Below the pieces are notes generated by a model that did no database searches, was not told where the DNA came from, and saw nothing but the letters and a program-made list of their open reading frames with translations. This document shows positions 36,585 to 43,936 of a DNA stretch of 64,000 nt, in pieces. Location of the stretch: contig CALANA010000103.1 in the NCBI GenBank assembly GCA_937925925.1, positions 1 through 64,000 of the forward strand. Reading direction: 5' to 3'. Source of the stretch: an uncultured Chloroflexales bacterium. Its GTDB lineage: Bacteria; Chloroflexota; Chloroflexia; Chloroflexales; Chloroflexaceae. Every line of letters begins with the position of its first letter. Positions within the stretch are counted from its first letter, which is position 1. The position numbers and the translations under genes were made by a program.

Positions 36585-36977
36585 TCAATGACACGACTTA
36601 CGCGATAGGTTACTCTACACGTGTATTTTGCCAGCCTACCGGCACCGCTGCACAGCAGGCTGGTGTCAGCGTAGCAGGGGGTCGTTTTCCCTCTCAATAT
36701 TCGCCCATAGGGCCCATGTTGGTGGAAAGAAAGGGAACGCACCGCTCTGTCAAAGACCAAAACCAGAAAGTAATGGACGACCGCGTGACTTGTATCTAGG
36801 ATTTACGCGGTCGTGTAAAACAGATGTCTTTTTCGCCTGTGGCAAGGTGGAAATACCCCTTTTTTCACCCCAAAATTTCGACATAGGCGAATTTTGGGGT
36901 GAAAAACAGACCAGGTATCGCTCTGCCGAAGGTGGAAAGATGAGGTAACGATACGACTGTCTAACTCCTGTCATTGA
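36585..36977. mobile_element. Composite of family-1 TIR elements (two abutting units), inverted relative to the 28517 copy
   Basis: Outer TCAATGACACGACTTACGCG / ...AACTCCTGTCATTGA; internal ACGACCGCGT...ACGCGGTCGT junction; hairpin TTTTTCACCCCAAAATTTCG..CGAATTTTGGGGTGAAAAA at 36861-36906. Confidence 0.6.
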
Positions 36978-42259: not shown

Positions 42260-42679
42260 TCAGACAGATAGCGATTTGCTTTCCTCGTCTTCCACCATTG
42301 TTTCGATCAATTCGATCACACTTCCAGCTAATTGAGGATGCTGGTGTAAGAGTTCAATAGCGAGCAGCAGGTCTGAGCCAGCACTATATGGACTTTCTGC
42401 GATTGATTGCTGTGGCGGTGTTGATGGAAGTTGCTCATACAGGATTGGTTCGGTGTCGGGCAGCAATGTGGCTGGATTGATATGCAACAGTCGTGCAATG
42501 ATCAGCAATGTCGTAATATCGAGGCTGCGTTCGCCGCGTTCCCACCGCGATACGGTGACGCGCTTGACTCCTAGTGCATGTCCTAACTCTGCCTGTGTGA
42601 TTCCGCTCCGTAAGCGAGCCTGTTGGAGCGCCTGTCCTATGTGCTGGCTGATGGTGGCATTCGGGGTCGTTTTACTCAC
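42260..42679 (-). CDS. XRE-family helix-turn-helix regulator
   Basis: 139 aa; IGQALQQARLRSGITQAELGHALGVKRVTVSRWERGERSLDITTLLIIARLLHI; GTGA overlap with the upstream gene. Confidence 0.9.
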   Translation of the reverse strand: MSKTTPNATISQHIGQALQQARLRSGITQAELGHALGVKRVTVSRWERGERSLDITTLLIIARLLHINPATLLPDTEPILYEQLPSTPPQQSIAESPYSAGSDLLLAIELLHQHPQLAGSVIELIETMVEDEESKSLSV

Positions 42680-43524
42680 AGCAACCGCTCCTGTAATGGA
42701 GGTAGCGCATCCGGATCATCTGGGAGAAGTTCTGCAGCCCGATTTCGTAGCCATGTCAGGGCGTCTTCATAGCGTCCAGTGGGCAGCATAGCATATTTGG
42801 GAGTTTGCAGATCGGCACAAAACCGACCAAAGAGCCGGGGAAAGATGGATTGCCCCGTTTTTTGTTGATAGCGGGTTGCCAGCCGCTGGATGCCCTTTTT
42901 AATGATCTCGGCCTGGGCAGCACTGATCGTGGTGTGGCTGGCAATATGTTGCTGAAGTTCGTCGACCAGGGTTTCAAGGTGTGTCATCCGCTGATCATGT
43001 CCCGTTAGTTCTTCCGCGACAGACTGCTGGGCGCTCAGGAGGGTTTCCCGTGTGATCCGCAATTCTTGCAACAGACGTGATTGTTGCTTACGGAGTGTGG
43101 CGACAAGCGAGCATTCATTATTGGTAGTATTATCGGGTGTTGCTGGCAGTGCCGCGCCATACAGCGCATCCAGCACATGCACCAGTTCACGCTGGTAGCT
43201 TACGAGTTTTTCACGAACGGCTTCTCCTACCTGGGCCGGATTGATGGTTGCGAGCCAGAAGGGAATATAGGTATGCAAGATAGCGAGCATTGGCCGCAAC
43301 TGGTTGCCATCAGGAATACGCACGACTCGTAGTCCTTCACTCAGTACCGGGTGATTGCGCAACTGGTGCGCCTGATGATCGGGTTCTATACCAATGGCCT
43401 GCGAGACTAATCGTGTCGGTACTGCAACTCCTTCCGGGAGAATAACGGTACGCAACTGATCGCCATGAAAAACAATTTCTTCGTAGCTGCTGCGTGGCAC
43501 CAATCCAAAATCATCTTGCGTCAT
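42676..43524 (-). CDS. Phage antirepressor N-terminal domain (P22_AR_N-like) protein
   Basis: 282 aa; IVFHGDQLRTVILPEGVAVPTRLVSQAIGIEPDHQAHQLRNHPVLSEGLRVVRIPDGNQLRPMLAILHTYIPFWLATINPAQVGEAVREKLVSYQRELVHVLDALYG. Confidence 0.75.
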   Translation of the reverse strand: MTQDDFGLVPRSSYEEIVFHGDQLRTVILPEGVAVPTRLVSQAIGIEPDHQAHQLRNHPVLSEGLRVVRIPDGNQLRPMLAILHTYIPFWLATINPAQVGEAVREKLVSYQRELVHVLDALYGAALPATPDNTTNNECSLVATLRKQQSRLLQELRITRETLLSAQQSVAEELTGHDQRMTHLETLVDELQQHIASHTTISAAQAEIIKKGIQRLATRYQQKTGQSIFPRLFGRFCADLQTPKYAMLPTGRYEDALTWLRNRAAELLPDDPDALPPLQERLL

Positions 43525-43548
43525 AGAGCCACCTTTCGATCAATTGTG

Positions 43549-43684
43549 TCATTGACAGGAGTTACGCGGTAGTATAGTTAGCTAAACTTTGCGCCTTCAG
43601 CAGCGGGAAAAACAGAAAACGTACTACTTTGCCGAATGCGAAAAAGACGCTTTGTTTGAATGACCGCGTACGTCCTGTCATTGA
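43549..43684. mobile_element. MITE-like family-1 short element (43556-43677) flanked by TCATTGA direct repeats
   Basis: CAGGAGTTACGCGGT / ACCGCGTACGTCCTG ends; TCATTGA at 43549-43555 and 43678-43684. Confidence 0.7.
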
Positions 43685-43703
43685 CGGAACGAGAGCGGAA
43701 CAT

Positions 43704-43861
43704 GATACCATTATGGTATCACAGCTCCAGGGAACTTGCCCCGGCAGGGATACCGTTATGGTATCATAGGTGCTACCATTGTGCAATGACTACGACAGCG
43801 ATACCATTATGGTATCACAGCTCTGGGGAGTTACCCCTGGCAGAGATACCATAACGGTATC
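43704..43861. promoter_or_regulatory. Array of four 17-bp palindromes GATACC[AG]T[TA]A[TC]GGTATC
   Basis: 43704-43720, 43749-43765, 43800-43816, 43845-43861; spacings 45/51/45; two ~62-bp palindrome-spacer-palindrome units. Confidence 0.85.
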
Positions 43862-43936
43862 ATGCGGCCATTGCGTTGGTCAAATCCTATATGTGCAGCC
43901 AGTTGCTCTATCTGAGATCTTCAAAATGACAGGTAC

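Follow-up and report, generated by a model that had tools for sequence, protein, structure and literature searches.

What is the role of four regularly spaced palindromes that lie between an amylase gene and a two-gene operon encoding a P22_AR-like antirepressor (AR) and an XRE-family regulator? They occur in a 64,000-nucleotide stretch of a contig from an uncultured Chloroflexales bacterium (the window; all coordinates refer to it). As judged from comparative sequence analysis, the array most likely serves the AR-XRE operon as its autoregulatory operator, putatively bound by XRE, with probable feedback from AR and with half-sites private to each copy of the operon. We favor this reading, with a probability of roughly 0.77, because the same geometry recurs at homologous operons and because the position of the promoter relative to the operators is shared. 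The features of the locus, in the order of transcription of the operon, are:

43845–43861, minus strand: operator 1, farthest from the AR gene; sequence GATACCGTTATGGTATC
43800–43816, minus strand: operator 2; the predicted -35 element follows 7 bp downstream of its end
43763–43792, minus strand: predicted sigma-70 promoter with -35 TAGTCA (43792–43787), an 18-bp spacer, and -10 TATGAT (43768–43763); 9 of 12 positions match
43749–43765, minus strand: operator 3, with the probable transcription start inside it and a 3-bp overlap with the -10 element
43704–43720, minus strand: operator 4, downstream of the predicted transcription start
43548–43685, no strand assigned: MITE-like element of 138 bp with 23-bp terminal inverted repeats, between the array and the AR gene
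42676–43524, minus strand: AR gene (282 amino acids; P22_AR_N domain; phrog_524, anti-repressor Ant)
42260–42679, minus strand: XRE gene (139 amino acids; HTH_3), which overlaps the AR stop codon by 4 bp

The window contains four exact matches to GATACCNNNNNGGTATC (GATACC-N5-GGTATC), all within 43704–43861 and with start-to-start distances of 45, 51, and 45 bp, just as the initial annotation had described them. If up to two mismatches are allowed, there are eight matches, as compared to 1.65 expected, and none of 100 shuffled sequences reached eight. When all 6-bp half-sites and spacers were searched without bias, the window scored 12, and 20 shuffles gave at most 4. The array is built from two diverged units, which had been put at about 62 bp and which we delimit as 64 bp (43704–43767 and 43800–43863; 83% identical to each other). 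The location that had been proposed, upstream of the P22_AR-like/XRE operon and downstream of the amylase gene, also holds: the array lies 75 bp 3' of the stop codon of the amylase gene and covers the region 179–337 bp 5' of the start codon of AR. Each of the two spacers between paired operators (43721–43748 and 43817–43844) contains a weak inverted repeat.

Dispersal of the motif as a repeat had been raised as a way in which the operator reading could fail, and a genome-wide search found exact sites at the array only. There are no others in the 5.2-Mb genome, which rules out a transposable repeat. With up to two mismatches, the rest of the genome has 212 matches, which is near the background (181 in a reversed control). 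Nor did we find a tandem pair of GATACC-N5-GGTATC sites in the 399 other Chloroflexota genomes that we searched. Exact sites are similarly confined to their own array in the genomes of two relatives (4/4 sites in the window genome, 5/5 in G074, and 4/4 in G053), and the lack of further exact sites in these three genomes argues against a regulon.

AR matches P22_AR_N (7.3e-17) and the antirepressor family phrog_524 (4.7e-22), and XRE matches HTH_3 (7.6e-15). A structure model of XRE has a helix-turn-helix domain followed by two C-terminal helices, and its best fold matches are C.BclI, P22 c2, and ImmR; for AR, the structure search of the PDB gave no confident match. We can set aside a defense system, as AR has no PADLOC match and XRE matches only generic helix-turn-helix models. 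AR likewise has no close relatives among the viral and plasmid matches found, which were all distant (about 22%–37% identity).

We identified about 20 homologous P22_AR + XRE operons, nearly all of them in Chloroflexales genomes. (Two of the records are named Scytonema and Gracilibacteria; these may be misassigned contigs.) In nearly all of the readable loci, the XRE gene directly follows the AR gene, with an overlap of 1–4 bp, and nearly every homologue with readable upstream DNA is preceded by two to five palindromes. These share a C-N5-G center but have varying half-sites:

TGTGTC: L054
TGTGGC: L052 and L056
GGTTCC: L053
CGTTCC: L058
GTTACC or ATTACC: L050
GGGGCC: L063
GTAGCC or GTAACC (GTARCC): L048
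TGTGAC: L055
GTGCC or GTGAC: L046, L047, and L060 to L062
GTACC: L051 and L108
GATCC: L059

The spacing is far more regular: 26 of the 48 intervals between operators are exactly 43 bp, and another 10 are 50–52 bp. Conservation of the array beside orthologous loci, a check that had been suggested, thus holds for its geometry but not for the half-site sequence, which changes from locus to locus. The exceptions are truncated or partial copies (L064 has one site and L065 has none), and the upstream sequence of L049 was too short to read an array. The duplicated operator pair of the window has a counterpart in L054, and the arrangement of two operators on either side of the promoter is also seen in L058 (43/60/43). 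As for the details of individual arrays, the spacers of L054 hold ACGGTAGGTACCGT. The operators of L048, L060, L061, and L062 are quasi-palindromic and directional; the site closest to the promoter is the only inverted one in L061 and L062. Four distant AR homologues (L027, L028, L029, and L133) have different, G-rich inverted repeats directly before the AR match (for example, three copies of GGGGGTGTGCGGTCTCACACCCC), which are possibly a second class of operator.

The promoter has a consistent place in these arrays. In the window, it is predicted within the 51-bp interval between operators 2 and 3, so that palindromic operators flank and overlap it: the -35 element starts 7 bp past operator 2, and operator 3 and the -10 element have 3 bp in common. 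This frame (7/-3) is also found in L052, L053, L054, and L056, and L048 is nearly identical (7/-2). More generally, when the 420 bp upstream are scanned, the best sigma-70-like promoter of every array is next to an operator or between two of them, and it usually falls within the long interval. Most relatives have TTGACA as their -35 element, and that of the window (TAGTCA) is a weaker one. TAGTCA-N18-TATGAT was also recovered by an independent search. This layout of a predicted promoter and its operators is as would be expected for repression by occlusion.

Could the array instead be a centromere-like partition site? In this case, XRE (or AR) would bind the centromere, repress its own promoter, and work with ParA. 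Plasmid partition loci (ParR/parC) offer a precedent, with iterons that flank a promoter. Furthermore, a ParA gene follows the XRE gene in L113 (where the two overlap), L107, L108, L103, and L105, and L103 also has DnaB and ParB. On the other hand, that ParB gives L103 a partition protein of its own; the window operon includes no ParA or ParM ATPase; and no ParA adjoins at least L098, L111, L112, L114, and L115, of which L098, L111, L114, and L115 have kept their arrays. The genes around the window copy are of the chromosomal type rather than from a phage or mobile element, which also argues against partitioning. Overall, we consider a partition site to be unlikely.

The surroundings do bear on where the module comes from. 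The AR-XRE operons of L103, L107, L108, L109, and L113 adjoin DnaB, ParA, ParB, and large proteins without a Pfam match, and these regions are apparently Chloroflexales mobile replicons. Because some relatives lie beside such genes, the module belongs at least in part to mobile replicons. In a genome of the same genus as the window (G001), the MurI-S8-VanW block is present but no AR-XRE operon adjoins VanW, so the copy looks to have been either acquired in the window genome or lost in G001.

A second alternative is that the sites are bound by AR or by an unrelated regulator. P22_AR/Bro-type proteins can bind DNA, and covariation between the recognition helix of XRE and the operator, which would tie the sites to XRE, is moderate overall and weak after redundancy is removed (Mantel r = 0.37, p = 0.01 across 16 loci; not significant, p = 0.15, across 12 distinct helices). 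When the second residue of the recognition helix is an aspartate, position 4 of the half-site is a G in five of six helix classes, versus one of six for other residues; we view the covariation as suggestive only. However, the AR homologues are 40%–55% identical to the window's AR and are conserved over their whole length, with 39 invariant columns, while the half-sites are completely different, which makes AR a poor candidate for reading the sequence. The XRE homologues are far more divergent (just 26%–36% identical to the window's XRE). No gene besides AR and XRE is constantly linked to the arrays, and a binder other than XRE seems improbable. AR is conserved, whereas XRE diverges as the sites do, and no other sequence-reading protein is constantly linked to them; this genomic context makes XRE a well-supported, if unproven, candidate for the binder. 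A multi-operator array for a dimeric regulator, with the neighboring XRE protein as the candidate, had been the initial annotation's proposal, and given the recurrent geometry, the changed half-sites, and the bracketed promoter, it is still the best reading.

If each XRE protein reads its own sites, then copies that share a cell may be insulated from each other. In genomes with two to four copies of the operon, the same operator type was never seen twice, as compared to 2.0 expected (P = 0.048, with types that were grouped after seeing the data). Such private specificity resembles the heteroimmunity of phages.

One way in which the window differs from its relatives is the distance from the array to the AR gene. 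The last operator starts at -196 relative to the aligned AR start, versus -36 to -95 in most relatives. If the 138-bp MITE-like element is taken out, then operator 4 would start at about -58, which is within this range, so the unusual distance is due to the insertion and not to design. The arms of the element's terminal inverted repeats are 87% complementary, and another 57 partial matches in the genome (not counting the query itself) show that it belongs to a dispersed family. We found an inward pair of these terminal repeats in 12 of the 30 loci that we read, including 43548–43685. A longer MITE-like relative lies at about 36585–36977 of the window (the terminal inverted repeats of the family begin with GTCAWTGACAGGA); inside it, upstream of the MurI gene, 36861–36906 forms a perfect 17-bp inverted repeat, TTTTTCACCCCAAAATT, with a 12-bp loop.

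The leader RNA is predicted to fold strongly (z = -4.4), each site could form a 7-bp hairpin, and sites 3 and 4 may be transcribed, yet it is very improbable that the palindromes, placed between the amylase and AR genes, function at the RNA level as hairpins or terminators: the strong fold stems largely from the MITE arms, most sites in the relatives are upstream of the promoter, the same sequence (not pairing alone) is repeated within an array, and a terminator or known RNA was set aside, as we found neither a terminator-like site nor an Rfam match that passes the gathering score.

If the AR-XRE operon regulates itself through the array, then dimers of the 139-amino-acid XRE repressor would bind each 17-bp site. 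RNA polymerase would be kept out when sites 2 and 3, which flank and partly cover the promoter within the 51-bp interval, are occupied, and the outer sites 1 and 4 would add affinity or cooperativity. AR, made from the same transcript, probably acts on XRE as phage antirepressors act on their targets and would determine which state a feedback switch is in. Each copy of the operon would have evolved its own half-site, which would prevent cross-regulation within one cell, as with phage immunity specificities. Surrounded by chromosomal genes, the window copy is an orphan, with a MITE that landed in its leader. The array is real and in all likelihood functional; we infer binding and repression by XRE from context, and the action of AR on XRE from phage precedents.

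The closest known systems are phage immunity regions. As in P22 (c2 and Ant) and lambda, several palindromic operators surround a promoter, XRE has the fold of P22 c2, and its partner is Ant-like (phrog_524). Unlike in those phages, AR and XRE appear to be co-transcribed from the array promoter, no phage genes adjoin the window locus, and the operators are 43–51 bp apart instead of the roughly 20–25 bp of P22/lambda-type operators. The C proteins of restriction-modification systems (C.BclI and C.AhdI) are the closest fold matches to XRE and are autoregulating XRE dimers at paired operators, but here there are no restriction-modification genes and the arrays have up to five sites with 43-bp spacing. 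Makarova 2009 (PMC2701414) described Xre-Bro antirepressor pairs as resembling toxin-antitoxin modules; these are also two-gene modules of an XRE protein and an antirepressor, but the available portion of that account does not describe an operator array or its diversification. The Gifsy phages have heteroimmune repressors with different operators that are inactivated by antirepressors (Lemire 2011, PMC3121763), but the Gifsy antirepressors are small, LexA-controlled, and encoded outside the immunity region. The stoperators of cluster A mycobacteriophages, in the parts of the reports available to us, are also numerous, with immune specificities that diverge between relatives, but they are asymmetric, dispersed across the genome, and bound by a monomeric repressor (PMC6550527, PMC9283540), whereas here the sites form one array. 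Overall, the proposed mechanism belongs with phage-type immunity control, which is known, and the new part is a fixed array geometry with diversified half-sites.

About 18 loci with a constant layout and roughly a dozen half-sites amount to a natural experiment on the divergence of repressor specificity under a preserved promoter geometry. These loci also offer candidate orthogonal repressor-operator pairs from the Chloroflexales, a group with, to our knowledge, few characterized regulators of mobile elements. More tentatively, the pairs of repressor and operator in the Chloroflexales may form a fast-diversifying family whose array geometry is fixed and whose members are insulated from one another. 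Operator change would then be driven by selection against cross-talk between co-resident copies, and the array may also serve its carrier elements as a site of incompatibility or partition.
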